Below, piece by piece: positions 26,230-43,830 of a stretch of DNA of 45,742 nucleotides. The position numbers and the translations under genes are program-made. Every line of letters begins with the position of its first letter. The stretch's first letter is position 1. The notes beneath the pieces are model-generated. The model had not been told where the DNA came from. It searched no databases and saw only the letters and a program-made list of their open reading frames with translations. Source of the DNA: Phycisphaerales bacterium (GTDB lineage Bacteria > Planctomycetota > Phycisphaerae > Phycisphaerales > UBA1924); assembly GCA_947476675.1 (NCBI GenBank), contig CANJRL010000006.1, positions 1-45,742 of the forward strand, read 5' to 3'.

Positions 26230-26379
26230 TCATGCGTCGTCGTCGTCGCGGAACAGGATCCTCACCGGGGGCGTCGCCGTGTCGTCGTACTGACCTCGGC
26301 GCGTCGCCCAGACGAACGCGCCGACGAAGAGCGCCGCGATCCCCAGCGTGATCGGCAGGATGATGAAGATCACCTCCAT
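26230..26379 (-). CDS. ccoS: cbb3-type cytochrome oxidase maturation protein CcoS
   Basis: A short 49-residue protein: MEVIFIILPITLGIAALFVG followed by AFVWATRRGQYDDTATPP and an acidic end (FRDDDDA). One transmembrane helix followed by an Arg-rich W/RxGQYDD segment is the CcoS signature. CcoS is needed to insert haem and copper into the cbb3 catalytic subunit. Its start overlaps the end of ccoI by 10 bases, the usual ccoI-ccoS order, and it is the last gene of the cco operon. It converges on the third FkbM gene. Confidence 0.9.
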   Translation of the reverse strand: MEVIFIILPITLGIAALFVGAFVWATRRGQYDDTATPPVRILFRDDDDA

Positions 26380-28871
26380 CGAGCACCCCCGGCGGCTGGC
26401 TCGGCAAAGGCCCGGTTGCGGAAGGAGAGCACCGCGACGGTGACGCTGCTGATCGGCATGAGCACCGCCGCGACCAGCGGGCTCACCAGCCCCGCCATCG
26501 CCAGGGCAACGAAGACCGCGTTGTAGCCGAGGGAGACGGCGAGGTTGCGGCGGATGACGCGGGTCACCCCCCGCGCGCCGCGCACCAGGTCGACGAGCCC
26601 GGCAAGCCCGGGCCGCGAGAGGTACACGTCGGCCGCGGCCAGCGCCGCCTCCGCCCCGCCGTGCACTGCAACGCCGACGGTCGCCGCGGCGAGCGCAGCG
26701 GCGTCGTTGACTCCGTCGCCGACCATGACCACCGGTCCGGTCGCGGCCAGCGCCGCGATGCGCGCGGCCTTGGACTCCGGCGTCGCCCCTCCGACGACGG
26801 ACGCGGCGCCCAGCCCCAGCGACGCACCCACCGCGGCGGCGACGCGCGGGTCATCGCCCGAGAGCAGGAGGGGGCGCCAGCCCGCGCCGCGCAGGGCGCC
26901 GATCGATGCCGCGGCGTCCTCGCGGATCGTGTCGCCGAGCGCGATCACAGCGGTGGGGGCGCCATCGGCGGCGGCGAGCACGGGGGTGAGACCGTCGCGC
27001 GCCGCGTCGGCGATCGCTCGCTCAAGGGGGAGGGGGAGGCGGGCGCCGGAGGACAGCCGGGAGAGCACGAACGCCGGCGACCCGATGATGAGCGAGACAC
27101 CCTCGACGTGCGCCTCGACGCCGCCGCCGAGGCTGTGGGCCACGGATTCGGGCTCTTGACCATCTTCCCCCGAGAACGCCTCTGCGATGGCGCGTGCCAA
27201 GGGATGATTGACGCTCCGTTCGGCGGCGGCGATGAGCGGCTTGAGATGAGCCGGCCCGGCGTAGCGTTCGACCCGGGGCGAGCCGGTGGTCAGCGTGCCG
27301 GTCTTGTCGAAGACGATGGTCCCCTTCCCGGCGAGCGACTCGAGCGCGTCGCCCCCCTTGATCAGGATGCCGCGGCGCGCGGCGCGGCCGATGCCGACCA
27401 CCACGGCCAGCGGGGTCGCGAGGCCGAGGGCGCAGGGGCAGGTGATGATGAGCAGGGCGACGGCGTGCTCGACGGCCGCGGCGGCGCCGGCCCGCCACCA
27501 GATCGCCGCGGTGACCGCGGCGCAGAGCAGGACGGCGGCGACGAACCACGCGACGACCCTGTCCGCCGCGCGCACGATCGCCGGACGCCGGTGCGCGTGG
27601 TCCTCGACGAGGCGCATCAGGGCGGCAAGGCGGGTGGCCTCGCCGGCGGCGGCGGCGCGGACCAGGATGCGTGAGGCGAGGTTGACCGACCCCGCGACCA
27701 CCGACGCGCCGGGCCCGACCGGCGCGGGGCGTGACTCGCCGGTGAGCAGCGAGGAATCGACCGCCGAGGCGCCGGCTTCGACCAGGCCGTCGACCGGGAT
27801 CGACTCCCCCGGCGCGACCGCGACCAGGTCGCCCTCCCGCAGGGCCTCGATGGGCACGGCGCGCTCGGCGCCGGCGTCGACGCGGACGGCGCGCGAGGGG
27901 GTGAGGTGGAACATCGCCTCGATCGCGTCGGCGGCGCGGCGCTGCTGCGACGACTGGATGAAGCGGCCGATGAGCAGCAGGAAGACCAGGGTGCAGATGG
28001 TGTCGAAGTAGACCTCGCCCGCGCCCCGGGCGGTGTTGGAGGCGCCGTGCGCCATGCCGATGAGCAGCGCCAGGGCGATCGGGACGTCCATGTGCAGGGC
28101 GCCGACGCGGAGCGAGGCGATGGCGCCGCGGAAGAAGACGCGCCCGGGCCAGCAGATCGATGCCAGCGCCAGCCCGGCGCTGACGCACCGGAACCAGAGG
28201 CTGAACCGCCCGTCGATGCCGGTGAACAGCCCCGCGTAGAGGCTGATGGCGAGCAGCATCGTGTTCCCGAAGAGGGCGCCCGCCACGCCGATGCGCTGGA
28301 CGGCCTGGCGCGTCTCGCGCACCCGGGCCTCCCGCCCGTTGGCGCCGCGCAGCGGCCAGGAGGGGTAGCCCAGCCGGTCCATGGCGCGGGCGGCGGCGGA
28401 GAGCGCGATCTCGCCCTCGCGCCACAGGAGCGTGATCTGCCCCCGGCTCAGGTCGACCCGGGCCTCGACCACCCCGGGGGCGACGCGCGGCAGACGCTCG
28501 AGCAGCCACACGCACGCGGCGCAGTGAAGGCCCCGGCTCACCAGCGTGGCGCGGAGCAGCTCCGGCCCGGCGCGCGAGACGTGCAGGCGGTGGAAGACCG
28601 GGTCGTCGTATTCGTCGTACGCGGCCCCCGTGGAGGATGCGGGGCGCGGGGAGGCCCCGTCGGCCCTCAGGTACTCGTAGAACCGGTCGAGCCCGCAGGC
28701 GCGGATCGCGGTGCGCGCCGTCTCGCACGCGTGGCAGCAGAACTGCTCGGCGGCTTCCGGGCGCACCAGCCCCCGGGGGACGGGCAGGGCGCAGTGAGCG
28801 CACAGGACGGGGGCGTCGGCGCGGGCCGGGGCGGCGCTCCGAGCGAGGATGTCAGCGGGGAGAGCGCTCAT
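26370..28871 (-). CDS. ccoI: Copper-translocating P-type ATPase of cbb3 oxidase assembly (CcoI/FixI)
   Basis: The 833-residue P1B-type ATPase supplies copper for CcoN. It has the CcoI-type N-terminal cysteine cluster (CAHCALPVPRGL and QFCCHACETA, about 24-50) and a metal-binding CAAC loop (LHCAACVWLLE, near 118). It also has eight membrane segments including the CPC site CPCALGLATP (near 478), DKTGTLTTG (near 520), an HP loop and GDGVNDAAAL (near 716). The CPC motif and position inside the cco operon make it CcoI rather than a general copper exporter. It overlaps the TauE/SafE-like gene by 20 bases and ccoS by 10. Confidence 0.95.
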   Translation of the reverse strand: MSALPADILARSAAPARADAPVLCAHCALPVPRGLVRPEAAEQFCCHACETARTAIRACGLDRFYEYLRADGASPRPASSTGAAYDEYDDPVFHRLHVSRAGPELLRATLVSRGLHCAACVWLLERLPRVAPGVVEARVDLSRGQITLLWREGEIALSAAARAMDRLGYPSWPLRGANGREARVRETRQAVQRIGVAGALFGNTMLLAISLYAGLFTGIDGRFSLWFRCVSAGLALASICWPGRVFFRGAIASLRVGALHMDVPIALALLIGMAHGASNTARGAGEVYFDTICTLVFLLLIGRFIQSSQQRRAADAIEAMFHLTPSRAVRVDAGAERAVPIEALREGDLVAVAPGESIPVDGLVEAGASAVDSSLLTGESRPAPVGPGASVVAGSVNLASRILVRAAAAGEATRLAALMRLVEDHAHRRPAIVRAADRVVAWFVAAVLLCAAVTAAIWWRAGAAAAVEHAVALLIITCPCALGLATPLAVVVGIGRAARRGILIKGGDALESLAGKGTIVFDKTGTLTTGSPRVERYAGPAHLKPLIAAAERSVNHPLARAIAEAFSGEDGQEPESVAHSLGGGVEAHVEGVSLIIGSPAFVLSRLSSGARLPLPLERAIADAARDGLTPVLAAADGAPTAVIALGDTIREDAAASIGALRGAGWRPLLLSGDDPRVAAAVGASLGLGAASVVGGATPESKAARIAALAATGPVVMVGDGVNDAAALAAATVGVAVHGGAEAALAAADVYLSRPGLAGLVDLVRGARGVTRVIRRNLAVSLGYNAVFVALAMAGLVSPLVAAVLMPISSVTVAVLSFRNRAFAEPAAGGARWR

Positions 28872-29646: not shown

Positions 29647-30116
29647 CGGGCTCGCCCCGGCGCCGGCGCCGCGTCCTGCTCGTCGGTGAAGACCGTGCCG
29701 TCGCCCGTCTCGGCGCGCACGCGGACGTGCCACGAGCCGCCGGTGGTGACCGTCATGGGGGCGGCATACTCGCCCGGATCCTGCTCGGTCAGCAGGACGG
29801 CGAAGCGCCCGGACGCCCGGCGGTTGGGGAACGCTTCGCACCGGACCGTCGCGCGCGCGATCGGGGTTCCGCCGCTGTCGGCCAGGCGGACGCGCAGGCC
29901 GCCCTCCTCCAGCGTGACGCCCGCGGACCAGCCCAGCGCGAGGCTGCGCGCGCGTTGGCGGGCGGCGTCGTCCCAACGCACCGCCTTGTCGTAGAAGCCC
30001 GGCTCGACGGCGAAGGAAGGGTCGGAGGTTGCGCGGTAGATCAGCGCGGCCACGCTCACGAGGCCGATGAGCGCGACCGCGGCCGGCGCGGCGACCCACA
30101 CGCGGAGAGCGCTCAT
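29643..30116 (-). CDS. ccoH: FixH/CcoH-family cbb3 assembly protein
   Basis: A 157-residue protein with one N-terminal transmembrane helix (VAAPAAVALIGLVSVAALIY, about 8-27) and a periplasmic beta-rich domain. It carries the segment FAVEPGFYDKAVRWDDAARQ, matching the FixH 'vvePdYYrkal.Wd' pattern. FixH/CcoH stabilises the cbb3 complex and the copper-loading step. Its start overlaps the ccoG stop (ATGA) and its end overlaps the TauE/SafE-like gene. It is divergent in the periplasmic part, so the identity rests on position, topology and the short motif. Confidence 0.82.
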   Translation of the reverse strand: MSALRVWVAAPAAVALIGLVSVAALIYRATSDPSFAVEPGFYDKAVRWDDAARQRARSLALGWSAGVTLEEGGLRVRLADSGGTPIARATVRCEAFPNRRASGRFAVLLTEQDPGEYAAPMTVTTGGSWHVRVRAETGDGTVFTDEQDAAPAPGRAR

Positions 30117-31585
30117 TCGTGCTCCTCCTTCTCGCTCCGGGGGCGGGGAGCATCCCCCGCGGGTCCGAGCATGCGGAAATTCAGCGGCTTGGCGAGCCCG
30201 CGCCCGTCGGACACCACCAGCGTGATCTCGAGCGCGCCCCGCTCCGAGAACGCCCCGCTCGGCGCGACCACCACAACGCCCATCGTGTGCGTCTCCGAGG
30301 GGGCCAACACCGGCGGCTCCGCGTCCGTCACCACGCGCACGCCGAGCGCAGCGGCTTCTGGGGATGGAGTGACCCCAAAGGTGGCGGCGTCCGCTCCGCG
30401 GTTGACGATGCGAAGGCGCACCTGGTTGCCGATCTCGCCATCGCCGAGCGGATAGAACGGGGCGCCCTGCCTCGGCAGGATCGCGGCCTCCGCGACGGGC
30501 TTGGTGACGAGCAGGTAGACGAACGCCCCGAGCAGCAGCGCCACCAACGCGGGGTAGAGCGCCAGGCGCGGTCGGAGGATGGACCTCGCGGCGCCTTCGC
30601 GCATCGCCTGCGACGCGTACCCGATCAGCCCCCTGGGCTTCCCGATCTTGTCCATGACCGAGTCGCACGCGTCGATGCACTGCGCGCAGCCGACGCACTC
30701 CATCTGCAGCCCTTCGCGGATGTCGATGCCGGTCGGGCAGGTGGTCACGCACATCGCGCAGTCGATGCAGTCGCCCCGCGCCTGGGGAACAACTCGCAGC
30801 GAGATCTCCCCGGCGGGCGCCCCGCCCCGGTTCAGCCTGCCGCGCGGCTCGCCCCTCGCCCTGTCGTAACTGACGATCAGCGAATGCCGGTCGAGCATCA
30901 CCGACTGGATGCGGCCGTAGGGGCACGCGACCAGGCAGGTCTGCTCGCGGAAGTACGCGAAGTCGAACATCATCATGCCGGTGACGGCTGCCATCAGGGC
31001 GAACGAGCCGGGATGCTCCGCGGGCGAGCGCGACATCCAGTGCCGCAGATCATCCACCCCCACGAAATACGCCAGGAACACGTTCGCGAGCGCGAAGGAG
31101 CAGACGAGGAACGCGGCGTGCTTGGCGCCCTTGAGAGCCGCGGGGGTCGGCCGCTTGGCGCGGGCCGAACCCGGTGCGCCCTCGAAAAGCCGCTCGATGG
31201 GGCGGAACAGGAACTCCATGTAGACGGTCTGTGGGCAGGCCCAGCCGCACCACACCCGGCCGAACAGGGCGGTCGCCGCGAAGATGGCGAGGAAGGCGGC
31301 GATGAACAGCACCGCCACCAGCAGCGTGTCGGTGGGGAAGAAGGTCGAGCCGAAGAGGTGGAAGCGTCGCTGGGCGATATCGAGAAGCACGGCCGGCGAT
31401 CCGTTGACGCGGATCAGGGGCAAGGCGACAAAGAGCGCCATCAGCGCGTATCCGGTCGCCCGCCTCGCCGTGAGGAACCGGCCGCGCGAGAGCCGGGGCC
31501 TGAGCCAGCGCCGCGATCCGTCGGCGTTGAGTGTGGCGAGCACGCGGCCCTCGGGGGCCGGTGCGGTCGGCGCCTCAACCGCCAT
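30113..31585 (-). CDS. ccoG: cbb3 oxidase accessory polyferredoxin CcoG (FixG/RdxA)
   Basis: The 490-residue membrane protein has an N-terminal block of helices and GRVWCGWACPQTVYMEFLF (about 108-126), the hallmark NosR/FixG motif. Two 4Fe-4S clusters follow (CIDCAMCVTTCPTG and CVGCAQCIDACDSVM, about 265-310). The large C-terminal periplasmic immunoglobulin-like domain is FixG_C-like (LRIVNRGADAATFGV). It is an inner-membrane ferredoxin that probably reduces copper for the oxidase. It overlaps the ccoP end by 11 bases and ccoH by 4. Confidence 0.95.
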   Translation of the reverse strand: MAVEAPTAPAPEGRVLATLNADGSRRWLRPRLSRGRFLTARRATGYALMALFVALPLIRVNGSPAVLLDIAQRRFHLFGSTFFPTDTLLVAVLFIAAFLAIFAATALFGRVWCGWACPQTVYMEFLFRPIERLFEGAPGSARAKRPTPAALKGAKHAAFLVCSFALANVFLAYFVGVDDLRHWMSRSPAEHPGSFALMAAVTGMMMFDFAYFREQTCLVACPYGRIQSVMLDRHSLIVSYDRARGEPRGRLNRGGAPAGEISLRVVPQARGDCIDCAMCVTTCPTGIDIREGLQMECVGCAQCIDACDSVMDKIGKPRGLIGYASQAMREGAARSILRPRLALYPALVALLLGAFVYLLVTKPVAEAAILPRQGAPFYPLGDGEIGNQVRLRIVNRGADAATFGVTPSPEAAALGVRVVTDAEPPVLAPSETHTMGVVVVAPSGAFSERGALEITLVVSDGRGLAKPLNFRMLGPAGDAPRPRSEKEEHE

Positions 31586-32174
31586 GGGGCGCGCCTCCGG
31601 GGGCCGGCGCGGGCCCCCACGGCGGGATCGGCTTGCCCTCCGGCGGCTTGCCCGGCTGGGGATGGCTGCGCATGTTGGCGACGAACGACGCGACGAGGAT
31701 GCGCTCGTTCTCGGTGAGCCTGTTGCCCCACGCCGGCATGCCCTTGGCGCCCACCCCCTCGGTGATGACCCTGAAGATGTCGGTCATCTTCTCCACGTTG
31801 ATCCATGAGTCGTCGGTGAGGTTGGGGCCCGTGATGCCGCTCCCGGTGGAGCCGTGGCAGACGGCGCAGTTGGCGGCGAACACCGAGCCGCCGAAGTTCA
31901 TCCATCGCTCGTCGGCCATCATCCGGAACATGGTCGGCTCGTCGGGTGAGAGCGTGCCCAGCACGGCGAACAGCCTGCCGTAGTAGTCCTTCTTGTCCGA
32001 GGCGAGGGCGTCGTACGGCGTCCACGCCAGTTCCGAGGCGTGCCAGAAGACGGCGTAGAACGCCGAGAACACGACGGTGGCGATGAAGAGCATGTGCCAC
32101 CAGCCGGGGGTCGGGTTGTCGTACTCCGTGATGCCGTCGTATTCGTGGTCGAGGACCCGCGGTTCGTGCCTCAT
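31575..32174 (-). CDS. ccoP: cbb3 cytochrome oxidase subunit III (CcoP), single haem c
   Basis: CcoP feeds electrons to CcoN. The 199-residue protein has the CcoP N-terminal motif HEYDGITEYDNPTPGWW (10-26), one transmembrane helix (about 27-45) and one c-type haem site CAVCH (103-107) with a likely Met ligand in GMPAWG (145-150). Standard CcoP carries two CxxCH sites in about 290 residues, so one haem domain is missing. The C-terminal Pro-rich tail (KPPEGKPIPPWGPAP) is probably disordered. Its start overlaps the ccoQ stop by four bases. I see no second CxxCH here or frameshifted nearby. Confidence 0.93.
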   Translation of the reverse strand: MRHEPRVLDHEYDGITEYDNPTPGWWHMLFIATVVFSAFYAVFWHASELAWTPYDALASDKKDYYGRLFAVLGTLSPDEPTMFRMMADERWMNFGGSVFAANCAVCHGSTGSGITGPNLTDDSWINVEKMTDIFRVITEGVGAKGMPAWGNRLTENERILVASFVANMRSHPQPGKPPEGKPIPPWGPAPAPGGAPHGG

Positions 32175-32383
32175 CGGCGGGCCTCCGCGTTGCCGGGCGC
32201 GGCCTCGTCCCGGACGCGCTGCCCGTCGTCGAGCGCAAGGGCGGCGACATCCGCCTCGATCTTCCGGCTCGCGCGGCTCCAGAGCCGCGCTACCAGGACC
32301 AGGAACAAGACGAGGAAGATCGCCAGCCCGATCTCGGGCGCCACGGTGGCGTTCATGCCGCTGACAACGTCGGAGAGCCTCAC
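32171..32383 (-). CDS. ccoQ: cbb3 oxidase small subunit CcoQ-like
   Basis: A 70-residue protein with one hydrophobic helix (GLAIFLVLFLVLVARLWS, about 19-36) and a charged tail, the expected size and form of CcoQ, which stabilises the oxidase complex. It sits between ccoNO and ccoP, overlapping both by four bases (ATGA). Sequence similarity in this family is low, so the identification comes from size, topology and place. Confidence 0.8.
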   Translation of the reverse strand: MRLSDVVSGMNATVAPEIGLAIFLVLFLVLVARLWSRASRKIEADVAALALDDGQRVRDEAAPGNAEARR

Positions 32384-34659
32384 TTGGCGCCCCCTTCCTT
32401 TGCCGGTCCCGCGGTCGGCGCCGCGGCGGCGGTGGTCTTGGAAATGTCTGTCCCGAGCCGCTGGAGGTACGCGACCAGCGCGATGACCTTCTTGTCGCCC
32501 ATGTTCTTGTAGCCCCCCTGGCCCTCGAGTTCGGCGGCGATCGCCGCGGCCTGCGCCCGCGCCAGGTCCTCGGCCCGCTCGGCCTCATCCCTGCTGTACG
32601 GCACGCCCAGGGCGACCATCGCGCCGACGGTGGCGCGGATCTCGCCGTAGTCCGTGCCCTGCTCGAGCAGGTGGGCGTACGTGGGCATGATCGAGCCCTG
32701 GACCAGCTGCCTGGGGTTCTCGAAGTGACGCACGTGCCAGTCGTGGCTGTACTTGCCCCCGACGCGGTGCAGGTCCGGCCCGATGCGGCGCGACCCCCAC
32801 TGGAACGGATGGTCGTAGACAAACTCGCCCGGTTTGCTGTACTCGCCGTAGCGGCGGGTCTCCGCCCAGATCGGGCGGATCATCTGCGAGTGGCAGTTGT
32901 AGCAGCCCTCGGCCCGGTAGATGTCGCGCCCGGCCAGCTCAAGGGGGGTGTACGGCGTGACCGACTCGATCGTCGGCACGTTGGACTTGATCGCGAACAT
33001 GGGCACCGCCTCCAGCGCCGTGCCCACGCTGATCGCCGCGATCACGAACACCGCGAACTTCACCGGCATGCGCTCCCACAGCCGGTGCCAGGAGAGTCGG
33101 GCGAATTCGTCCGCCGCCTTCCCGGCGTCGATCACCGAGGTGAGGTCGGAGCGGTAGGGGGCGTCGTGCGCCGGCCGGGCCTCGAGAAGCGGCGCGGTGT
33201 GCAGCGTCTCGGCCAGGACGCGCGGGCGCCCTGCACGGGTCATCAGCAGGTTGAACGCCGCCATGACCATCCCCACGACGAAGAGCCCGCCGCCCCCGGC
33301 GCGGATCCAGTAGAGCGGCGCGAGCTTGGTGACGGTCTCCACGAAGTCGGGATAGGCGAGGGCGCCGTTGGCGTCGAACGCGCGCCACATGAGGCCCTGG
33401 GTGATGCCCGCCCACTGCATGCTCACCCAGTACGCGATGATGCCGATGGTGGCGATCCAGAAGTGCCACTCGGCCAGGCGCTTCGACCACAGGGGCGCCT
33501 GGTAGAGCCTGGGGAACAGCCAGTAAGCCATCCCGAAGAAGAGCATGGCGTTCCAGCCCAGGGCGCCGCCGTGCACGTGCCCGATGGTCCAGTCGGTGTA
33601 GTGCGACAGGGCGTTCACGCTCTTGATCGAGAGCACCGGCCCCTCGAAGGTTGCCATGCCGTAGAACGTGATCGCGGTGACGAAGAACTTGAGCACCGGG
33701 TCGGTGGCCACCTTGTGCCAGGCTCCGCGGAGCGTCATCAGCCCGTTGATCATCCCGCCCCAGGAGGGCATCCACAGCATCAGCGAGAACAGCATGCCCA
33801 GCGTCGAGGCCCACTGAGGCAGGGCCGTGTAGTGCAGGTGGTGGGGGCCCGCCCAGATGTAGATGAACACCAGCGACCAGAAGTGGACGATCGAGAGCTT
33901 GTACGAGAACACCGGCCTCTCGGCGGCCTTGGGCAGGAAGTAGTACATCAAGCCCAGGATCGGCGTGGTGAGGAAGAACGCCACCGCGTTGTGCCCGTAC
34001 CACCACTGCACGAGGGCGTCCTGCACGCCGGCGTACACCGAGTACGACCGCAGAGGCGCCGCCACGACCACCAGGCTGTTGAACACGTGGAGCACCGCGA
34101 CCGTCGCGATGGTCGCGATGTAGAACCACAGGGCCACGTACAGGTGCCGCTCCCGCCGGCGGAGCAGCGTCCCGAAGAAGTTCGCCCCGAAGAAGCCAAC
34201 CCACACCACCGCGATCGCGATGTCGATCGGCCACTCCAGCTCGGCGTACTCCTTCCCCTGGGTGAAGCCCAGGGGCAGCGTGACTGCCGCGGAGACGATG
34301 ATCGCCTGCCATCCCCAGAAGTGCAGGTTGCTCAGCAGGTCGCTGAACATCCGCGCCTTGCAGAGCCGCTGCGTCGAGTAGTACACCCCGGCGAACATGC
34401 CGTTGCCCACGAACGCGAAGATCGCCGCGTTGGTGTGCAGCGGGCGGAGCCGCCCGAACCCGAGCCACTCCAGCCCGAAGTTCAGGCGCGGCACGACCAG
34501 CTGGAGCGCGATGAAGAGCCCGGCGGCCATCGCCACGACGCCCCACAGCAGCGTCGCCAGCATGAACTTGCGGACGATCGAGTCGTCGTAACTGAAGGTG
34601 TCAACCGTCCGAACGGCCGGGCGCCCGGCGGGGTCGAATGTCGAGGCCGAGGTCATCAT
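32380..34659 (-). CDS. ccoNO: Fused cbb3 cytochrome oxidase subunits I and II (CcoNO)
   Basis: The 759-residue protein joins CcoN (1 to about 480) and CcoO (about 520-759). CcoN shows the helices and histidines of the haem-copper site: RPLHTNAAIFAFVGNGMFAG (low-spin haem), WWYGHNAVAFFLTTPILG (Cu/active-site His and Tyr region), WAGPHHLHYTALPQW, and DWTIGHVHGGALGWN for the haem b3/b pair. CcoO begins WERMPVKFAVFVIAAISVG, contains the CcoO haem c site GCYNCHSQMIRP, then DHPFQWGSRRIGPDLHRVGG, and ends with a Pro/Ala/Lys tail. It is the catalytic O2-reducing, proton-pumping core with high oxygen affinity. It is the first gene of the operon and divergent from an Rrf2 regulator. Confidence 0.96.
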   Translation of the reverse strand: MMTSASTFDPAGRPAVRTVDTFSYDDSIVRKFMLATLLWGVVAMAAGLFIALQLVVPRLNFGLEWLGFGRLRPLHTNAAIFAFVGNGMFAGVYYSTQRLCKARMFSDLLSNLHFWGWQAIIVSAAVTLPLGFTQGKEYAELEWPIDIAIAVVWVGFFGANFFGTLLRRRERHLYVALWFYIATIATVAVLHVFNSLVVVAAPLRSYSVYAGVQDALVQWWYGHNAVAFFLTTPILGLMYYFLPKAAERPVFSYKLSIVHFWSLVFIYIWAGPHHLHYTALPQWASTLGMLFSLMLWMPSWGGMINGLMTLRGAWHKVATDPVLKFFVTAITFYGMATFEGPVLSIKSVNALSHYTDWTIGHVHGGALGWNAMLFFGMAYWLFPRLYQAPLWSKRLAEWHFWIATIGIIAYWVSMQWAGITQGLMWRAFDANGALAYPDFVETVTKLAPLYWIRAGGGGLFVVGMVMAAFNLLMTRAGRPRVLAETLHTAPLLEARPAHDAPYRSDLTSVIDAGKAADEFARLSWHRLWERMPVKFAVFVIAAISVGTALEAVPMFAIKSNVPTIESVTPYTPLELAGRDIYRAEGCYNCHSQMIRPIWAETRRYGEYSKPGEFVYDHPFQWGSRRIGPDLHRVGGKYSHDWHVRHFENPRQLVQGSIMPTYAHLLEQGTDYGEIRATVGAMVALGVPYSRDEAERAEDLARAQAAAIAAELEGQGGYKNMGDKKVIALVAYLQRLGTDISKTTAAAAPTAGPAKEGGAK

Positions 34660-34803
34660 CGGGCTCTCCGCATGGGCGGGGTGCAGAAGCCAGGCGCGTG
34701 GCTGCCTTAGCCGCGGCCTGGCGAGGGGCGTCGCCGGGAGGGGTCAGATCCCCGTTCGGGCCCCAATGGCGATGAGAATATCCAGAATCGGCCAAAGATC
34801 AAG

Positions 34804-34830
34804 ATATACGGAGTGCTAAATCCGCAATAT
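34804..34830. promoter_or_regulatory. Inverted repeat in the cco/Rrf2 divergent spacer; candidate operator
   Basis: ATATACGGA-N8-TCCGCAATAT: CGGA (34809-34812) mirrors TCCG (34821-34824) and ATAT (34804-34807) mirrors ATAT (34827-34830). It lies in the most AT-rich part of the 277-bp spacer between ccoNO and the Rrf2 gene. An Rrf2-type dimer is the obvious candidate binder. No FNR-type TTGAT-N4-ATCAA is seen. Confidence 0.45.
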
Positions 34831-34936
34831 TTGAGATAGAGTTGTCTGGATTTCCCCCGCCCGGCGGGGTACGGTCAGCACGCGAGCACCAGAGCGGTCG
34901 CGCTGCGCCCGCGCATCGCCGCCACCGGAGTTGCAC

Positions 34937-35440
34937 ATGTATGGCAAGCAGACGCAGACCGCGATCGCAGCGATGAGCCGCCTTGCCGAGATCTATGACG
35001 GAGGCCGCACACGACTCTCCGCCAGCGACATCGCCCGGGACCGAGGCCTGCAGGCCCCGTTCGTCGCGAAGCTCATGACGGCGCTCTCGCAGGCGGGGCT
35101 CGTCGATGGCGCCCCCGGCCCTGGCGGCGGGTACTCACTCGCGCGGCCCCCGGGCAGCATCCGGCTCGCCGAGGTCTTCGGGCTCTTCGAGCGCGAGGAC
35201 ACCAGCACGACGTGCCCCTTCGGCGCTGGGACCTGCGGCGGGATCACCCCGTGCCCGCTGCACGACAAGCTGGTCAACCTGCAGCGCGCCCTCGATGATC
35301 TGCTGCAGAACACCACGTTCGAGGAGTTCCATCGGCGCGCGGCGGAGGGCGCCGCGCAGCCGGTCATGCCGACCGGGGTCGCGCCAGCGCGGCGCGAGTC
35401 GTTCCGCGCCGCTGCCGGTCCGAATCAGGCCTCGCGCTGA
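34937..35440 (+). CDS. Rrf2-family transcriptional regulator with a three-Cys cluster
   Basis: The 167-residue protein begins MYGKQTQTAIAAMSRLAEIY, the Rrf2 N-terminal helix. A winged helix follows with RLSASDIARDRGLQAPFVAK (recognition helix region) and the wing GPGGGYSLARP. The C-terminal dimerisation helix carries Cys residues in CPFGAGTCGGITPC (about 91-104), spaced C-x6-C-x5-C, close to the C-x5-C-x5-C of IscR. It should bind an Fe-S cluster and sense iron-sulfur status, NO or redox. The ATG at 34937 fits GGAG at 34927-34930; an in-frame TTG lies at 34931. Divergent placement suggests control of the cbb3 operon. Confidence 0.88.
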   Translation: MYGKQTQTAIAAMSRLAEIYDGGRTRLSASDIARDRGLQAPFVAKLMTALSQAGLVDGAPGPGGGYSLARPPGSIRLAEVFGLFEREDTSTTCPFGAGTCGGITPCPLHDKLVNLQRALDDLLQNTTFEEFHRRAAEGAAQPVMPTGVAPARRESFRAAAGPNQASR

Positions 35441-35452
35441 TGGCCCCGACGC

Positions 35453-38400
35453 TCAGTGAGCCGCCGCCGGCGGCTGCGGGGGACCGGCGTGCCCGCCCGG
35501 CGCGACGGCGTTCTTCTTTCCTCCAACCGCCTCGCTGAAGCGCTGGATCAGGACGTAGAAGACGGGGACAAAGAAGACCGCCAGGAAGGTGGCGGTGATC
35601 ATCCCGCCCATCACGCCGGTGCCGATCGAGTGCCGCCCGGCGGCGCCCGCTCCGGTGCTGATCACCAGCGGGATCACGCCGAGGATGAACGCGAGCGAGG
35701 TCATGACGATGGGCCGCAGGCGGAGGCGGGCGGCCTCGATGGCCGCTTCGACGATCGTCTTGCCCGCGGCGCGCTGGAAGACGCAGAACTCGACGATGAG
35801 GATCGCGTTCTTCGCCGCAAGGCCGACGAGGGTGAGCAGGCCGATCTGGAAGTAGATGTCGCGGTCGATCCCGCGGATGAACACCGCCAGCAGGGCGCCG
35901 AAGATGCCCACGGGCACCGCGAGCAGCACGGCGATCGGGAGCGACCACTTCTCGTACTGGGCGGAGAGCACGAGGAACACCACGAGCAGGCCGAACGCCA
36001 GCACCTTCGGCGCCTGGTCGCCCGACTTGACCTCCTGGAACGACGCGCCGCTCCACTCGTAGCCGAAGCCCGGGGGGAGTTCGCTCTCCGCGGTCTCGCG
36101 CATCGCGGCCATCGCCTGCCCGGTGCTGTAGCCGGGCGCCGGGGCGCCCGTGATCTGCACCGAGGGGAAGCCGTTGAAGCGGCTGACGATGTTGGGCCCC
36201 GCCTGGAATCGCGTGCTCACCACCGAGCCGAGCGGGACGGCGTTGCCCTTGTCGTTGCGCACGTAGATCGACCGGATGTCCTCGGGATTCTTGCGGAACT
36301 CCGGCTCGGCCTGGAGCTGGACGCGCCAGATGCGCCCGAACTTGTCGAAGTCGTTGACGTAGAGCGCGCCGAGGTACGCCTGCATCGCGTCGAAGACCTC
36401 GTTCACGCGCACGCCCATCATCTTGGTCTTGGTGCGGTCGAGGTCGACGAACAGCTGCGGCTGGGTCACGCGGAACGGGCTGTTGAGCCCGGCGATCTCG
36501 GGCCTCTCGCGCGCCTTCGCGAGGAACTTGTCCATCGCCGCCGCGAGGGAGCGCACGTCGGCGGATTCGCGCGACTGCAGCTGGAACTCGAACCCGGCGC
36601 GCTGGCCCAGGCCCTGGATCGCCGGGGGGTTGAAGGTGAGGACGAGCCCGTCCTTCTCAGCGCCGAACGCCCCCCACGCGGCGCCGATCATCGCCTTGGC
36701 GTGCTGGTCGGGGTTCTTGCGCTGGTCCCACGGCTTGAGGGGGACGAACATGACGGCGGCGTTGGTGCTGTTGACGCCCCCCGAGAGCAGGTCGTACCCC
36801 CCGAGGGTCACCACGTTCTGGACGTTGGGGTTGTCGAGGTAGAACCTCTCGACGCGGCGGACCAGCGCGTCGGTCCGCTCGAGCGACGCTCCGTCGGGGA
36901 GCAGCACCACCGAGATGATGTAGCCCTGGTCCTCGTCGGGGATGAACCCGCTCGGCACCCTCTGGAAGAGCGTGTACGTCCCGAAGAGCACCGCGCCGAA
37001 AACCAGCACCGTCCCGATCGCGCCCCGGATCGCGATGCGCACGGCGCCCGTGTACCCCCGCGTCAGACGGTCGAAGCCGGCGTTGAACCACCGGAAGAGG
37101 ATGAACTTCTTCCTCCCGTGGGTCGGCCGGAGCACGATGCGGCACATCGCGGGGCTCAGCGTGAGAGCCACGATGCTCGAGATGAGCACCGACACCGCGA
37201 TGGTGACGGCGAACTGCTTGTAGAGCTCGCCGGTGAACCCGCCCAGGAAGCCGACGGGGACGAACACCGCCGCGAGCACGAGCGACGTGGCGATGATCGG
37301 CCCGGTGACCTCCTCCATCGCCTTGATCGTCGCCTCGCGTATCGGCAGGTTCTCCGTCTCCATGATGCGGTCCACGTTCTCGATCACCACGATCGCGTCG
37401 TCCACCACGATGCCGATCGCCAGCACCATGCCGAACAGCGTCAGCGTGTTGATGGAGAAGCCCAGCGCGAGCATCCCCGCGAACGTGCCGATGATCGACA
37501 CCGGCACCGCGACCAGGGGGATGATCGTCGCCCTCCACGACTGCAGGAACACGAACAGGACGACGAGCACCAGGCCGATGGCCTCGAGCAGCGTCTGCAC
37601 GACCTCATCGATGGACACCTGAACGAACTTGGTGGTGTCGTAGGGCACGTCGTACTCGACGCCCTTGGGGAAGGCCCGGGACATCGAGTCCATCGCGGCG
37701 CGGATCTGCGCCACGGTGTTCAGCGCGTTGGCCCCGGTCTGCAGGTAGACCAGCACCAGGGTGGTCGGCTGGCCCCCGAGCCGCCCGAAGAGGTCGTAAC
37801 TCTGGGACCCCAGCTCGACGCGCGCGACGTCGCGGAGCCGGATCATCGAACCGTCGGGGTTGGCCCTCAGGATGATGTTCTCGTAGTCGGTCGCGGTGTC
37901 GAACCTGCCGCGCGTGAGCACCGGCAGGGTGAGCTGGGCGCCCGGCTCGTTGGGAGACTGCCCGATGCGCCCCGCCGCGAACACCGCGTTCTGTTCGCGA
38001 ACCGCCGAGGCGACGTCGCTCACCGTCATGGTCTTCTGCGCGAGCCGATCGGGGTTGACCCAGATCCGCATCGCGTAGTCCTTGGCGCCGAAGACGAGCA
38101 CGTCGCCGGCGCCCGGGATCCGCTTGAGCGCGTCCACCACGTTGATGGTCGCGTAGTTGCTCAGGTACACGTCGTCGTACTGCGCATCGCTCGATTTCAG
38201 CGCCACCACGCACAGCAGGTTGCTCGACCGCTTGGTGACCGGGATCCCCTGCCGCACCACGTCCTGCGGCAGGCGGGGCTGGGCGATCGAGAGGCGGTTC
38301 TGCACGTCGACCGCCGCGATGTCCTGGTCCGACCCGATCTCGAAGGTCGCGGTGAGCGACATCGTGCCGTCGTTGGCGCTCTGCGAGGAGTAATAGATCA

Positions 38401-38626
38401 GGTTCTTGGCGCCGCTCAGCTGCTGCTCGATCGGCGCAGCGACCGACTGCGCCACCGTCTCGGCGCTCGCCCCCTGATACGTGGTGGCGACCTGCACGGT
38501 GGGGGGGACGATCTCCGGGAACTGCGCGATCGGCAGCACGAAGATCGAGATCCCTCCGAGCAGGAGGATCACCAGCGACACGACGGTCGCGAACACGGGC
38601 CGATCGATGAAGAACTTGGAGATCAT
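35453..38626 (-). CDS. RND-family efflux pump inner-membrane protein (AcrB/MexB type)
   Basis: At 1057 residues it has the normal HAE1-RND length. It begins MISKFFIDRPVFATVVSLVI, with periplasmic porter domains, and carries the TM4 proton-relay region FGMVLAIGIVVDDAIVVIEN (DD) with TFAGMLALGFSINTLTLF before it. The second half has PVGIFGALLAVFIRGIDRDI and GLAAKNAILIVEF. It drives proton-coupled export of drugs, detergents or other hydrophobic compounds with the adaptor encoded 10 bp upstream. No outer-membrane TolC partner is in the window. The ATG at 38626 is chosen as the family-typical start; the frame remains open upstream. No regulator lies beside the pump. Its stop and the Rrf2 stop converge with a 12-bp gap. 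Confidence 0.96.
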   Translation of the reverse strand: MISKFFIDRPVFATVVSLVILLLGGISIFVLPIAQFPEIVPPTVQVATTYQGASAETVAQSVAAPIEQQLSGAKNLIYYSSQSANDGTMSLTATFEIGSDQDIAAVDVQNRLSIAQPRLPQDVVRQGIPVTKRSSNLLCVVALKSSDAQYDDVYLSNYATINVVDALKRIPGAGDVLVFGAKDYAMRIWVNPDRLAQKTMTVSDVASAVREQNAVFAAGRIGQSPNEPGAQLTLPVLTRGRFDTATDYENIILRANPDGSMIRLRDVARVELGSQSYDLFGRLGGQPTTLVLVYLQTGANALNTVAQIRAAMDSMSRAFPKGVEYDVPYDTTKFVQVSIDEVVQTLLEAIGLVLVVLFVFLQSWRATIIPLVAVPVSIIGTFAGMLALGFSINTLTLFGMVLAIGIVVDDAIVVIENVDRIMETENLPIREATIKAMEEVTGPIIATSLVLAAVFVPVGFLGGFTGELYKQFAVTIAVSVLISSIVALTLSPAMCRIVLRPTHGRKKFILFRWFNAGFDRLTRGYTGAVRIAIRGAIGTVLVFGAVLFGTYTLFQRVPSGFIPDEDQGYIISVVLLPDGASLERTDALVRRVERFYLDNPNVQNVVTLGGYDLLSGGVNSTNAAVMFVPLKPWDQRKNPDQHAKAMIGAAWGAFGAEKDGLVLTFNPPAIQGLGQRAGFEFQLQSRESADVRSLAAAMDKFLAKARERPEIAGLNSPFRVTQPQLFVDLDRTKTKMMGVRVNEVFDAMQAYLGALYVNDFDKFGRIWRVQLQAEPEFRKNPEDIRSIYVRNDKGNAVPLGSVVSTRFQAGPNIVSRFNGFPSVQITGAPAPGYSTGQAMAAMRETAESELPPGFGYEWSGASFQEVKSGDQAPKVLAFGLLVVFLVLSAQYEKWSLPIAVLLAVPVGIFGALLAVFIRGIDRDIYFQIGLLTLVGLAAKNAILIVEFCVFQRAAGKTIVEAAIEAARLRLRPIVMTSLAFILGVIPLVISTGAGAAGRHSIGTGVMGGMITATFLAVFFVPVFYVLIQRFSEAVGGKKNAVAPGGHAGPPQPPAAAH

Positions 38627-38636
38627 GCTCGGGTGT

Positions 38637-39824
38637 TCACCTCGTGGAGGCCGCCCCGCCCGGCGCAGTCGCCGAGGCCTGCTGGGGCTTGGCCGGCTCC
38701 GGTCTGACAACCGCCCCAGGCCGAGCCAGCAGCAGCCCGTCGACGACCACCCGCTCCCCCGGCTTCAGCCCGCTCTCGATGATCCAGGTGTCGTTGAACC
38801 AGTTCCCCAGGGTCACCGGCCGCGGCTCGACGGTGTCCTTCTGCCCGACCACCATCACCATCGGGCCCATGGGCATCTGCACCACAGCGCGTTGCGGCAC
38901 GGTGATCGCGTCAACCCGTTCCCAGCCCAGGATGCTGGCCTTGACAGACTGACCGGGCTGGAGCACGCCGCCGGCGTTCGGCAGCGCCGCTCGCACCGCC
39001 GCGGTGCCTGTCAGCGGGTCCGTTCGCACGTCGATGAAGTTGATGATCCCAGTGTGCGGATACTTCGTGCCGTCGGCCAGGGTGACCGCGACCGGGACCT
39101 TCCCGGGCTCGGGCCCGACGATCCGGCCCGACGCCACATCTTCCTTCCAGCGCAGGATCTCCCGCTCGGGGATCGGGAAGTACACGTAGATCGGGTCATC
39201 CTGGATCACCGTCGCGAGCAGGCTGTTGCTCCCGGCGTCGACGAGGCTTCCCTGCTCCTTCTGCGCACGGCCGATGCGGCCATTCAGCGGCGAGTGCACC
39301 TTGGTGTAGCTCATGTTCAGTTCGGCGTTCGCCAGTTCGCCCTGGGCCAGCCGCACCGCCGCCTTGGCATTGAGCAGGTTGGCCTGCGCCTCGTCCATCT
39401 CGCGGGGGTTGACCGCTCCGAGTTCGGCGACCTGTTCGAGACGCTGCAGCGTGGTCTCGGCAAGAAACCGCTGCGCCTCGCCCTGATTGAGCTTGGCGCG
39501 GGCGATCTCGAGGTCCGCCTCGAAGGAGCGGGGGTCGATCTCGAAGAGCAGGTCCCCCTCCTTCACCCGGCCGCCCTCTTCGAACAGCCAGCGGAGAAGG
39601 AACCCCTGTACCCGCGCACGGACCTCGACGGTCTTGGACGCCTCGGTCTGGGCCACGAAGTCATAGGAAACCGGGGCGCGGCTCGCCGCCACCGTCACCA
39701 CGCCGACCGCGGGAGGGGGCGCCGCCGGGGGAGCCGCCGGAGCGCCCCTCTTGCACGCCGCGAGCAGCGGGCATGCCGCGATGATCACCGCACCAGTGAC
39801 GACTCCCGGCTTTGCTTGCGGCAC
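38637..39824 (-). CDS. RND efflux periplasmic adaptor (membrane fusion protein)
   Basis: The 395-residue adaptor has a lipoprotein-type N terminus (VVTGAVIIAACPLLAAC, lipobox Cys) and a lipoyl half SYDFVAQTEASKTVEVRARV. A hairpin of long helices follows (KLNQGEAQRFLAETTLQRLE and ANAELNMSYTKVHSPLNGRI), then beta-barrel and membrane-proximal segments. MFP proteins link the RND pump to TolC. The start is GTG at 39824 with GAGGAG about 8 bases upstream; the frame is open further upstream, but without a signal peptide. It forms an operon with the pump gene. No TetR- or MarR-type repressor is next to it. Confidence 0.92.
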   Translation of the reverse strand: MPQAKPGVVTGAVIIAACPLLAACKRGAPAAPPAAPPPAVGVVTVAASRAPVSYDFVAQTEASKTVEVRARVQGFLLRWLFEEGGRVKEGDLLFEIDPRSFEADLEIARAKLNQGEAQRFLAETTLQRLEQVAELGAVNPREMDEAQANLLNAKAAVRLAQGELANAELNMSYTKVHSPLNGRIGRAQKEQGSLVDAGSNSLLATVIQDDPIYVYFPIPEREILRWKEDVASGRIVGPEPGKVPVAVTLADGTKYPHTGIINFIDVRTDPLTGTAAVRAALPNAGGVLQPGQSVKASILGWERVDAITVPQRAVVQMPMGPMVMVVGQKDTVEPRPVTLGNWFNDTWIIESGLKPGERVVVDGLLLARPGAVVRPEPAKPQQASATAPGGAASTR

Positions 39825-41030: not shown

Positions 41031-41328
41031 GGCGTGTCTCCGAAATGCCTGAAACAACCAGGCGGATTGGTTGATGCATCCCGCTCGGCAACTTCGCCGA
41101 TGCGGACGCAGAGACACGAAGGCAACCGCCGTGCCGGAATCGGCCCCGCGTTCCTGACGCGCCCGGGGGGCCTCGTCGAGCCGGGAAACGGCTCCCCAAT
41201 CCGCCACGAGTGTCATCCGACCCAAAATTTCCGCCAGAGTGGCAGCGTGTCCCGACCGCCAACCCCGGCTCACAGATGAGACGCGTTCTCGGCACACAAC
41301 AGGTTCCGAACCGGCTAGCGTGCCGTCC

Positions 41329-43830
41329 ATGCCCCCGGCGGTCAGCCTTGATCTTCCACTCGACGTCCCTCCCGGCGCGACCGACGCGGAGAGCCGCCTC
41401 GCCCATTTCCTCTCCCACGTGCGTCGCGAGCCCGGCGTCCGCCGCGCCGAAATCATCCCCCAGTCGGGCGTCGAGGGGGCCCCGACCCGCACGCTCCGCG
41501 CGACCTTTGACCGCCGTGCCCTGCCGCTCGCCTCGCTCGACCGCATCGCGCGGCACGCCGGCGTCTCCCTGCCGGGCTTCCAGGCCAGGTGGGCCCAGGT
41601 GGTGCTGCGGGTAGACGGGATGGTGTCGCCGCAGAGCGAGGATGCCATCGAGGCCGCCATCCAAGACCTCCCCGGGGTGCTTGGCGCCGCGTCGTACCCC
41701 TCCCGCACGCTGCGGCTCGAGTTTGACCGCCAGCAGTGCCAGTTGCCCGAGATCGCGGTGCGCCTTGGCAGGCTCGGCTTCCGGGTCCACCCGGCGGGCG
41801 CGGTCCCGTCGACGCAGCCGGAGTCCGCGGCGCTGGCGGCGCTCCGCGCCGGAGAATCGTGGCTCCGCCGCCGGTGGGGGGCGTTCAGGGCCGCCTCGAA
41901 CAACCCGCTCGCCGCCGCCATCGCCGGGGTGACCCTGCTCGCCGCAGGATTCGCCGCCGAACTCACCCAGGGCAAGGGCGCGCTGTCGCTCCTCCTCTAC
42001 CTTGGCTCCTACGCCGCCGCCGGCTCCGGCTCGGCTCGGGACGCGGTGCTCTCGCTCTGGAAGCGAAAACTGAACATCGACGTGCTGATGTTCGTCGCCG
42101 CCATCGGCGCCGGCGTCATCGGCCACCTGCCCGAGGGCGCGCTGCTCCTCGTGCTCTTCGCCTTCGGCCACGCCGGCGAGACGCTGGCGATGGACCGCGC
42201 CCGTCGCGCCATCGAAGAACTCAACAAGATCGCCCCCGAGACCGCGGTCCTCAAGACCCCGACCGGGCTCAAGACCGTCCGCGTCGAGGACCTGCGCCCG
42301 GGCGACGTGGTAGTCGTCAAGCCGGGCGAGCGCGTCCCCGCCGACGGCAAGGTCGCCGAGGGCGTTTCCTCGATCGACCAGTCGGCCATCACCGGCGAAT
42401 CAACCCCGGTCGAGAAGGCCGCCGGATCTCCCGTGTTCACCGGCACGCTCAACGGCAGCGGCGCGCTGGACGTGGTTGTCGAGAGACTCGCGAGCGAGAC
42501 CACCCTCGCCAAGGCCATCCGCCTCGTTCAGGAAGCCCAGACGCAGAAATCGCCCACGGAACTGCTCACCGACAAGGTCGAGCGCTACTACGTCCCCTTT
42601 GTGCTCGCGGCGACCGCGGCGCTCTTCCTCATCCCCCCATGCTTTCAAGGACTCACCGCGGATGCGTGGAAGACCTGGTTCTACCGCTCCATGGCGTTCC
42701 TCACCGCCGGGTCGCCCTGCGCTCTGGCCATCAGCACCCCGGCCGCCGTGCTCTCCGCGCTGGCCCGCTCGGCGCGCATGGGCGTTCTCATCAAGGGAGG
42801 CGCCCACCTCGAAACGCTCGGCCGACTCCCCCGGGACGGCGTCATCGTGTTCGACAAGACCGGGACGCTCACCGTCGGCAAACCCAGCGTCGTCGGGGTG
42901 GCGGCGTTCGCGCCGGCGACCGTCAGCGGCATCGCGGCGCCGGCGCTCGCGATGCCCGACAACGCCGCCGCGGTCCTCAGCATCGCCGCCTCCCTCGAAG
43001 TCGCGAGCAGCCACCCGCTGGCGGAGGCCGTCGTCGCCGCGGCCGCGCAGGCCGGCTGGGCGGGCCAGCGCGCCGAGCGTGTCGAGCAGGTCATCGGCAA
43101 GGGCCTCCGGGGAATCCTCGGCGGCGCGGCCATCGAGGTCGGCAGCCCGCGCATGTTCGAGGGCGATCCCGGCCTCGCGACCGTTCTCCCCCTGGCAGAG
43201 GAGGAGCAGGCCAAAGGGCGCACCGCGGTGCTTGTCCGCCGAGACGGGCGCTTCATCGGGATGCTCTCCCTCGCCGACCGCGCCCGGCCCAACGCCGCCT
43301 CGACCATCGCGGACCTGCGGTCCGTGGGCGTCGCCCGCGTGGTGATGCTCACGGGCGATGCCGAGGGCCCCGCCGCGGCCCTCGCGAAGGAACTCGGCGT
43401 GGACGAGCATGTTTCAGGCCTGCTCCCGGAGGACAAGATGGCCCGGATCCGCGCGTTCGCCGAGGGCCGCCAGACCGTCGCCATGGTCGGGGACGGCGTC
43501 AACGACGCGCCGGCCCTGGCCGCCGCCTCGGTCGGCATCGCCATGGGCGCCGCCGGCTCTGACGTCGCTCTTGAGACCGCCGACGTCGCGCTGATGCACG
43601 ACGACCTCTCCCGGCTGCCCGACGTGCTGCGCCTCGCCTCCTTCGCTCAAAGAATCGTGGCGCAGAACCTTGTGATCGCCTTGGGCGTGATCCTCCTGCT
43701 CGCGCCCTTGGCCGCCATGGGCCAGGCGAGGATCGGCATCGCCGTGCTCTTCCACGAGGGCAGCACCGTGGTGGTGGTGCTCAACGCCCTGCGCCTGCTC
43801 GGGTTCCAGACCTCGGCGCGGGCGAGGTAA
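41329..43830 (+). CDS. Heavy-metal P1B-type ATPase, SPC (P1B-4-like) class
   Basis: The 833-residue protein has two N-terminal HMA-like folds without CxxC (about 20-160, for example RWAQVVLRVDGMVSPQSEDA). Membrane helices follow, then the transmembrane metal site AGSPCALAISTP (near 461), DKTGTLTVG (near 508), ASSHPLAEAV, GDGVNDAPAL (near 721) and HEGSTVVVVLNALRLL (near 808). SPC plus HEGST is the P1B-4 pattern, which usually exports Zn, Cd, Co or Fe. Without CxxC, N-terminal metal sensing must differ from ZntA or CopA. The ATG at 41329 begins MPPAVSLDLPLDVPPG; upstream in-frame codons are possible. It is divergent from the Hsp20 genes. Confidence 0.93.
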   Translation: MPPAVSLDLPLDVPPGATDAESRLAHFLSHVRREPGVRRAEIIPQSGVEGAPTRTLRATFDRRALPLASLDRIARHAGVSLPGFQARWAQVVLRVDGMVSPQSEDAIEAAIQDLPGVLGAASYPSRTLRLEFDRQQCQLPEIAVRLGRLGFRVHPAGAVPSTQPESAALAALRAGESWLRRRWGAFRAASNNPLAAAIAGVTLLAAGFAAELTQGKGALSLLLYLGSYAAAGSGSARDAVLSLWKRKLNIDVLMFVAAIGAGVIGHLPEGALLLVLFAFGHAGETLAMDRARRAIEELNKIAPETAVLKTPTGLKTVRVEDLRPGDVVVVKPGERVPADGKVAEGVSSIDQSAITGESTPVEKAAGSPVFTGTLNGSGALDVVVERLASETTLAKAIRLVQEAQTQKSPTELLTDKVERYYVPFVLAATAALFLIPPCFQGLTADAWKTWFYRSMAFLTAGSPCALAISTPAAVLSALARSARMGVLIKGGAHLETLGRLPRDGVIVFDKTGTLTVGKPSVVGVAAFAPATVSGIAAPALAMPDNAAAVLSIAASLEVASSHPLAEAVVAAAAQAGWAGQRAERVEQVIGKGLRGILGGAAIEVGSPRMFEGDPGLATVLPLAEEEQAKGRTAVLVRRDGRFIGMLSLADRARPNAASTIADLRSVGVARVVMLTGDAEGPAAALAKELGVDEHVSGLLPEDKMARIRAFAEGRQTVAMVGDGVNDAPALAAASVGIAMGAAGSDVALETADVALMHDDLSRLPDVLRLASFAQRIVAQNLVIALGVILLLAPLAAMGQARIGIAVLFHEGSTVVVVLNALRLLGFQTSARAR

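Follow-up and report, generated by a model that had tools for sequence, protein, structure and literature searches.

The window, by which we mean the whole stretch of 45,742 nucleotides analyzed here, is contig C6 of a Phycisphaerales genome of 2.72 Mb (91.6% complete). It holds a cluster of genes for a cbb3-type cytochrome oxidase and, divergent from them, a gene for an Rrf2-family regulator:

26370-28871, minus strand: ccoI-like copper P-type ATPase (TIGR01511, 441.4 bits, cut-off 397)
30113-31585, minus strand: ccoG accessory protein (TIGR02745, 409.2 bits, cut-off 316.7)
31575-32183, minus strand: ccoP-like c-type cytochrome subunit (scanned as 31578-32183; TIGR00782, 85.7 bits, under the cut-off of 179.95)
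32380-34659, minus strand: fused ccoN-ccoO, cbb3 oxidase subunits I and II (NF011053, 1200.8 bits, cut-off 1080; TIGR00780, 651.5, cut-off 583.15; TIGR00781, 239.3, cut-off 200.65)
34937-35440, plus strand: Rrf2-family regulator of 167 aa with the motif C93-x6-C100-x5-C106-x2-H109

Both the ccoN and the ccoO profiles score over their cut-offs in the fused protein, identifying it as a cbb3 oxidase, and the name ccoI is given to the ATPase because of its position within the cco cluster. The divergent arrangement of rrf2 and the fused ccoNO gene and the 277-bp length of the spacer between them (34660-34936), both reported in a preliminary description of this region, are confirmed. The start of rrf2 is placed at the ATG at 34937, with a TTG at 34931 as an alternative. 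At its other end rrf2 is convergent with a gene for an RND efflux permease (35453-38710, minus strand; NF000282 over cut-off), and a heavy-metal P-type ATPase is encoded further along (41239-43830, plus strand; TIGR01512, the cadmium family, over cut-off).

Both profile score and fold place the regulator in the Rrf2 superfamily. It scores 85.8 bits against PF02082 in a profile search (curated cut-off 30) and 83.8 bits against TIGR00738 (curated cut-off 73.3), and its AF2 model (mean pLDDT 81.4) resembles RsrR, IscR, NsrR, and CymR. A Foldseek search with the model returned 37 matches at E ≤ 0.001, comprising IscR, RsrR, NsrR, CymR, one named Rrf2 protein, and unnamed putative regulators, with RsrR and IscR the nearest solved structures. 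We place the protein outside IscR and NsrR because its scores lie far under the curated cut-offs of both equivalogs (TIGR02010, 46.3 vs. 207.55; NF008240, 19.8 vs. 182); it is probably an Rrf2 member that works like IscR or RsrR, belonging to neither. Three cysteines and a histidine occupy the ligand positions of Fe-S Rrf2 proteins, and the protein is a probable iron-sulfur sensor. The C-x6-C-x5-C pattern was read correctly in the preliminary description, although its position, given there as about residues 91-104, is in fact C93, C100, and C106.

That description regarded Rrf2 control of a cbb3 oxidase as unusual, a view that does not hold for the juxtaposition of the two genes in this order. 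Among 301 genomes of the order, 144 encode ccoNO at E ≤ 1e-100, in 148 places, eight of which were left out for lack of a ccoN start or proximity to a contig edge, giving 140 ccoN upstream regions from 139 genomes. A divergent Rrf2 gene lies within ~1.5 kb in 77 of these 140 regions, an Rrf2 gene in another orientation in 5, and none in 58 (tblastn, 17 queries). The 77 comprise 16 of the type found in the window (A-type) and 61 of a distant type (O-type), a division recovered in a tree of 121 Rrf2 proteins with support of 100/99, in which the bootstrap was not fully settled and some branches are long. The other Rrf2 protein of the window's genome falls on the O side of this tree. Extension of the pairing to the whole phylum is rejected, as none of 29 regions from outside the order (28 genomes; 29 of 32 places found) had an adjacent Rrf2 gene.

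The full motif C-x6-C-x5-C-x2-H is present in 80/80 A-type relatives (first sample) and in 15/16 A-type proteins encoded next to ccoN (second sample). In one genome (G007; L013/L305) ccoNO is 90% identical to that of the window over the part compared, whereas the adjoining Rrf2 protein shares just 51% identity and lacks the first of the cluster cysteines, a point against the shared control proposed below. Tandem pairs of A-type rrf2 genes occur at L293 and L312 (G149 and G304), where the pair adjoins ccoNO, and at L059. The three cysteines and the histidine are complete in 45/61 O-type proteins; motif sequences were viewed for 12 of the remaining 16. An O-type subgroup (L179, L194, L254, L278, and similar) carries motifs such as CPLxLPEHxxxLCPLH, in which the middle cysteine of the cluster is substituted or displaced and a histidine lies close by, and perhaps coordinates a two-Cys two-His cluster.

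Only 12/80 A-type loci adjoin ccoNO. The genes neighboring A-type rrf2 (30 ORFs scanned, some matchless) are mixed, including respiratory genes and also those for universal stress protein, MgtC, transporters, NadA, a PurT-like protein, thiolase, and more, and we therefore do not claim a purely respiratory regulon. At L066, L067, and L091, A-type rrf2 is near genes for COX3 and cytochrome c domains, a cytochrome c/ethylbenzene-dehydrogenase-like protein, and NrfD; the neighbors at L086 fall in the same BLAST clusters as those at L066.

Phylogenetic footprinting started from the best 80 of 108 relative-encoding loci together with six loci from related genomes, which yielded 85 usable rrf2 upstream regions, or 79 once near-copies had been removed. 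Most of the 79 share a 28-bp dyad, the putative operator GAAATnnnGATATnnATATCnnnATTTC. It emerged from palindromic EM with the width set to 28, which estimated the share of regions containing a site at 82%; of 60 runs begun at random, the top eight arrived at the likelihood of the seeded run. The spaced word pair CGGA-N6-TATC occurs in 19 regions compared with at most 0.3 per shuffle. In a motif-free test, inverted repeats in these 79 regions were compared, at each gap from 0 to 20, with those in 40 shuffles. Repeats are enriched at the even gaps 2, 4, 6, 8, 10, 12, and 14 (z 4.6-7.7, with z = 7.7 at gap 8) and not at the odd gaps 3-15 (z 0.1-1.5), whereas gaps 0, 1, and 16 have z near 3 (3.1 at gap 1). 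This contrast between even and odd gaps indicates a dyad centered between two bases. In the control set of 58 ccoN regions without an adjacent Rrf2 gene, z is raised at even gaps as well as at odd ones (1.8 to 5.3) with no such contrast, showing that AT-rich sequence alone yields some repeats. Sites of at least 15 bits number 68 in the 400 bp before rrf2 in 80 named loci, compared with a background of 13 in the 549,549 bases of the same loci (0.0095 per 400 bp).

Scanning the window with a matrix trained on 64 rrf2 upstream regions away from ccoNO placed its two best positions side by side in the spacer. The features recognized there are as follows (operator sites have no assigned strand):

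34763-34790: possible weak operator site 3, CCAATGGCGATGAGAATATCCAGAATCG, 10.0 bits
34775-34802, minus strand: candidate cco core promoter, TTGATC-N16-TATTCT, read by eye, 8/12 consensus letters
34803-34830: putative operator site 2, GATATACGGAGTGCTAAATCCGCAATAT, 16.1 bits, rank 2 of 45,715 window positions, 5/10 arm pairs
34827-34854: putative operator site 1, the strongest, a 28-bp dyad ATATTTGAGATAGAGTTGTCTGGATTTC, 19.2 bits, rank 1 of 45,715 window positions

The score of site 1 is reached by 1/5000 shuffles of the spacer, that of site 2 by 2/5000, and that of site 3 by 48/5000; support drops once shuffling is limited to the AT-rich core (15/5000, 48/5000, and 485/5000, respectively). From these counts, sites 1 and 2 are well supported and site 3 is uncertain. 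The centers of sites 1 and 2 are 24 bp apart, a spacing that recurs in L013 and L034. Across 15 ccoNO-linked loci, the best site is unmatched by 300 shuffles in 14, and in the other (L010) p = 0.013.

Site 2 corresponds to a palindrome, ATATACGGA-N8-TCCGCAATAT, that the preliminary description had singled out. The repeat is indeed present (34804-34830), with unequal arms (9 vs. 10) and 5/10 pairs when aligned without gaps. On its own it is not above chance, the best repeat in 300 dinucleotide-shuffled spacers having 6 to 9 pairs, most commonly 7 (170/300), and we reject it as evidence by itself since every one of the shuffled spacers holds a better repeat. The exact core CGGA-N8-TCCG, which was picked post hoc, is expected ~0.01 times in the spacer and has one further occurrence in the window (44283). 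The palindrome becomes significant only through relatives, by way of the matrix from 64 other loci. It then belongs to a set of two or three putative operator copies; it is not the strongest of them, the stronger neighboring site 1 having gone unnoticed in the preliminary description, and its outer ATAT arms are not conserved letters.

In the window's own genome, where the preliminary description had proposed looking for the same repeat, an operator pattern finds three places, namely the spacer, C21:3326-3349 (13.8 bits), and C32:23679-23702 (9.6 bits), whereas the operator consensus with ≤3 mismatches finds none in the genome, the window's own sites diverging further than that. A looser pattern occurs at 22 places, two of them in the spacer (sites 1 and 3, with site 2 missed); 15 of the loose-pattern places were scored by the matrix, and the best outside the spacer has 13.3 bits. 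The operator-like sequence at C21:3326-3349 (L362 in G000) lies just 5′ of a plus-strand ORF and is a possible second target in this genome.

An operator serving only the rrf2 gene should be absent at ccoN where that gene is unlinked. In 17 genomes the A-type gene is unlinked; among these, the 400 bp upstream of ccoN reach at least 15 bits in nine and pass p < 0.05 in 11 (100 shuffles). All nine fall among the ten genomes with an A-type match at E < 1e-60; of the seven with a more distant A-type gene none reaches 15 bits and two pass p < 0.05, a split by relatedness made after the result was known. In genomes lacking an A-type match, too, 9/41 ccoN upstream regions attain 15 bits, so that the difference is modest for all unlinked genomes (9/17; Fisher p = 0.03) and clear for the close relatives (9/10; Fisher p = 1.3e-4). 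Training of the matrix included rrf2 upstream regions of some unlinked genomes, never their ccoN regions. Operator-like dyads are also seen upstream of ccoN in Planctomycetota of another family without an adjacent Rrf2 gene (L346, L352, and L345 in G381, G444, and G398, with 24.0, 21.6, and 19.1 bits, respectively).

The O-type lineage has its own variant of the operator. With the width unchanged, palindromic EM on 60 spacers of the O type gave, from random starts, GAntAnnnGATAaattTATCnnnTanTC, which shares its framework with GAAATnnnGATATnnATATCnnnATTTC and differs in the outer letters. In a two-fold matrix-preference test, for which the common GA/TC framework was the seed and which covered 47 of the 61 O spacers, A-type spacers preferred the A matrix in 16/16 cases and held-out O1 spacers the O matrix in 41/47. 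Such lineage-matched variants are hard to explain unless the Rrf2 proteins bind there. Under the A matrix, 41/60 O-type spacers pass p < 0.05, plus one from a genome with both types.

Divergent pairing with ccoN recurs in the order, the dyad is conserved, it is found at ccoN in several genomes whose regulator gene is unlinked, and the ligand residues are conserved. On these grounds we think it likely that the spacer serves both genes as a control region, in which an IscR/RsrR-like [2Fe-2S] Rrf2 protein binds both operators and controls its own gene and ccoNO, most likely as a repressor. In this mechanism, an Rrf2 dimer would hold a [2Fe-2S] cluster through Cys93, Cys100, Cys106, and His109 and would bind the two adjacent 28-bp operators at 34803-34830 and 34827-34854, setting two or more dimers between the divergent promoters, from where it would control both rrf2 and the divergent ccoNO cluster. 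The cluster-loaded form is predicted to repress both genes, with relief once the cluster is reduced, damaged, or lost; the signal may be oxygen or redox state, iron-sulfur status, or NO. If the switch is RsrR-like, cbb3 would be released as oxygen falls.

The direction of control at ccoNO invites another explanation, in which the same Rrf2 protein, bound at the same place, represses its own gene but acts as an activator of ccoNO from a position upstream of the ccoNO -35. Sites 1 and 2 lie just upstream of the candidate cco -35 (34797-34802), neither covers the candidate -10, and their distances from the ccoN ATG (181 and 157 bp) would suit an activator too. These promoter elements are by-eye guesses; a promoter scan found none, and the cco candidate lies below its threshold. 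Repression is more plausible in the 7/25 loci listed where, counted from the furthest-upstream in-frame ATG of ccoN, a strong site is found at 6-40 bp; in five of the seven, however, choosing another in-frame ATG would increase this distance, and the remaining two (G084 and G236) share one site. This uncertainty in ccoN start codons lowers our confidence in repression slightly, and we regard activation as rather improbable. It is less probable still, and in our judgment unlikely, that the operators serve autoregulation of rrf2 only and that ccoNO merely shares the spacer under the control of something else. The strongest site in the window is indeed closer to rrf2 (96 bp) than to ccoN, and operators before rrf2 are common (68 sites in 80 upstream stretches), yet few A-type loci adjoin ccoNO. 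Against this stands the operator at ccoN in genomes whose A-type gene is elsewhere, above all in nine of the ten close relatives.

Control of cbb3 oxidases is usually attributed to FNR/FixK, and the FNR box was taken here as TTGATnnnnATCAA. Conventional control of this kind, with the AT-rich palindromes reflecting no more than promoter composition within GC-rich DNA, appears very improbable here. The preliminary description saw no FNR box in the spacer, and the best match there has 4 mismatches of 10. It also held that conservation of an FNR site in relatives in place of the repeat would count against Rrf2 control; relatives instead keep an Rrf2-type operator between rrf2 and ccoN (16/16 A-type spacers next to ccoN, shuffle p < 0.05 with 100 shuffles each) and no FNR site (≤2 mismatches in 0/16), a result that favors its claim. 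The best FNR matches in A-type spacers average 3.44 mismatches compared with 3.47 in mononucleotide shuffles, so that neither the window nor the 16 spacers resemble the class of FNR/FixK-controlled cbb3 operons, and O-type spacers have a match with ≤2 mismatches in 7/61 cases. The contrast between even and odd gaps and the lineage-matched operator variants are likewise hard to obtain from composition. What speaks for FNR/FixK is that cbb3 operons are FNR-type targets elsewhere, such as ccoNOQP of Rhodobacter sphaeroides (PMC4263372), that the genome has one CRP/FNR-type HTH match just over cut-off (27.8 vs. 27 bits, the matching ORF of the region looking short at 102 aa), and that the 58 ccoN regions without an adjacent Rrf2 gene slightly exceed shuffles in FNR matches (mean 3.10 vs. 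3.38 mismatches; 13/58 with ≤2).

Shared control of rrf2 and ccoNO by the Rrf2 protein, our preferred reading, suggests from comparative sequence evidence that a local Rrf2 switch stands in for the usual oxygen regulators at planctomycete cbb3. More tentatively, we propose that in Phycisphaerales-type planctomycetes an Rrf2 [2Fe-2S] switch may have replaced FNR/FixK as the direct oxygen/redox control of high-affinity respiration, in two Rrf2 lineages that each have a co-evolved variant of one 28-bp operator framework. If true, many members of one planctomycete order would have a local Fe-S system in its place, acting at a defined operator, and the two lineages with their matching operator variants would offer a natural experiment in DNA choice by Rrf2 proteins.

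Known Rrf2 systems offer partial parallels. Among the matches listed in a literature search (Rrf2/IscR with cbb3, terminal oxidase, or planctomycetes, with most subscription journals outside its reach), the portions available contained no case of a cbb3 operon controlled directly by an Rrf2 protein. IscR autoregulates through a dyad, as predicted for the window's system, and its type 1 site is 25 bp, differing from the 28-bp, even-centered operator of the window. Unlike IscR, which has C-x5-C, the window protein has C-x6-C, and no isc or suf genes are found among the window neighbors scanned by profile. The two proteins have in common the Rrf2 fold and three cysteines followed after two residues by a histidine, matching Cys92, Cys98, Cys104, and His107, the cluster ligands reported for IscR of E. 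coli and relatives (PMC5411485). NsrR, an NO sensor, also has the Rrf2 fold and three cysteines, but in the window protein a histidine follows the third cysteine. RsrR of Streptomyces venezuelae is the best structural match (6hsm, about 23% identity) and its gene likewise forms a divergent pair, with two sites lying in the promoter region common to both genes; its [2Fe-2S] cluster is redox-switched and it binds best when oxidized (PMC5015018). It differs in that its neighbor is nmrA rather than an oxidase and its operator has an odd-centered 11-3-11 form in that same source, a form rejected here because even gaps 2-14 and not odd gaps 3-15 are enriched. An Rrf2 protein with a terminal oxidase as its predicted target is known from Acidithiobacillus ferrooxidans, in which CtaR is predicted to control an aa3 biogenesis operon (PMC2754497); the oxidase differs, the prediction comes with no operator in the text seen, and clustering of CtaR with cbb3 genes in T. 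denitrificans is a remark of its authors with data not shown. Together with CtaR, the nearest parallel is IscR of Caulobacter, an Rrf2 regulator that affects expression of ccoNOPQ, indirectly and by acting on fixK (PMC11475020), whereas the putative operator of the window is at ccoN itself.
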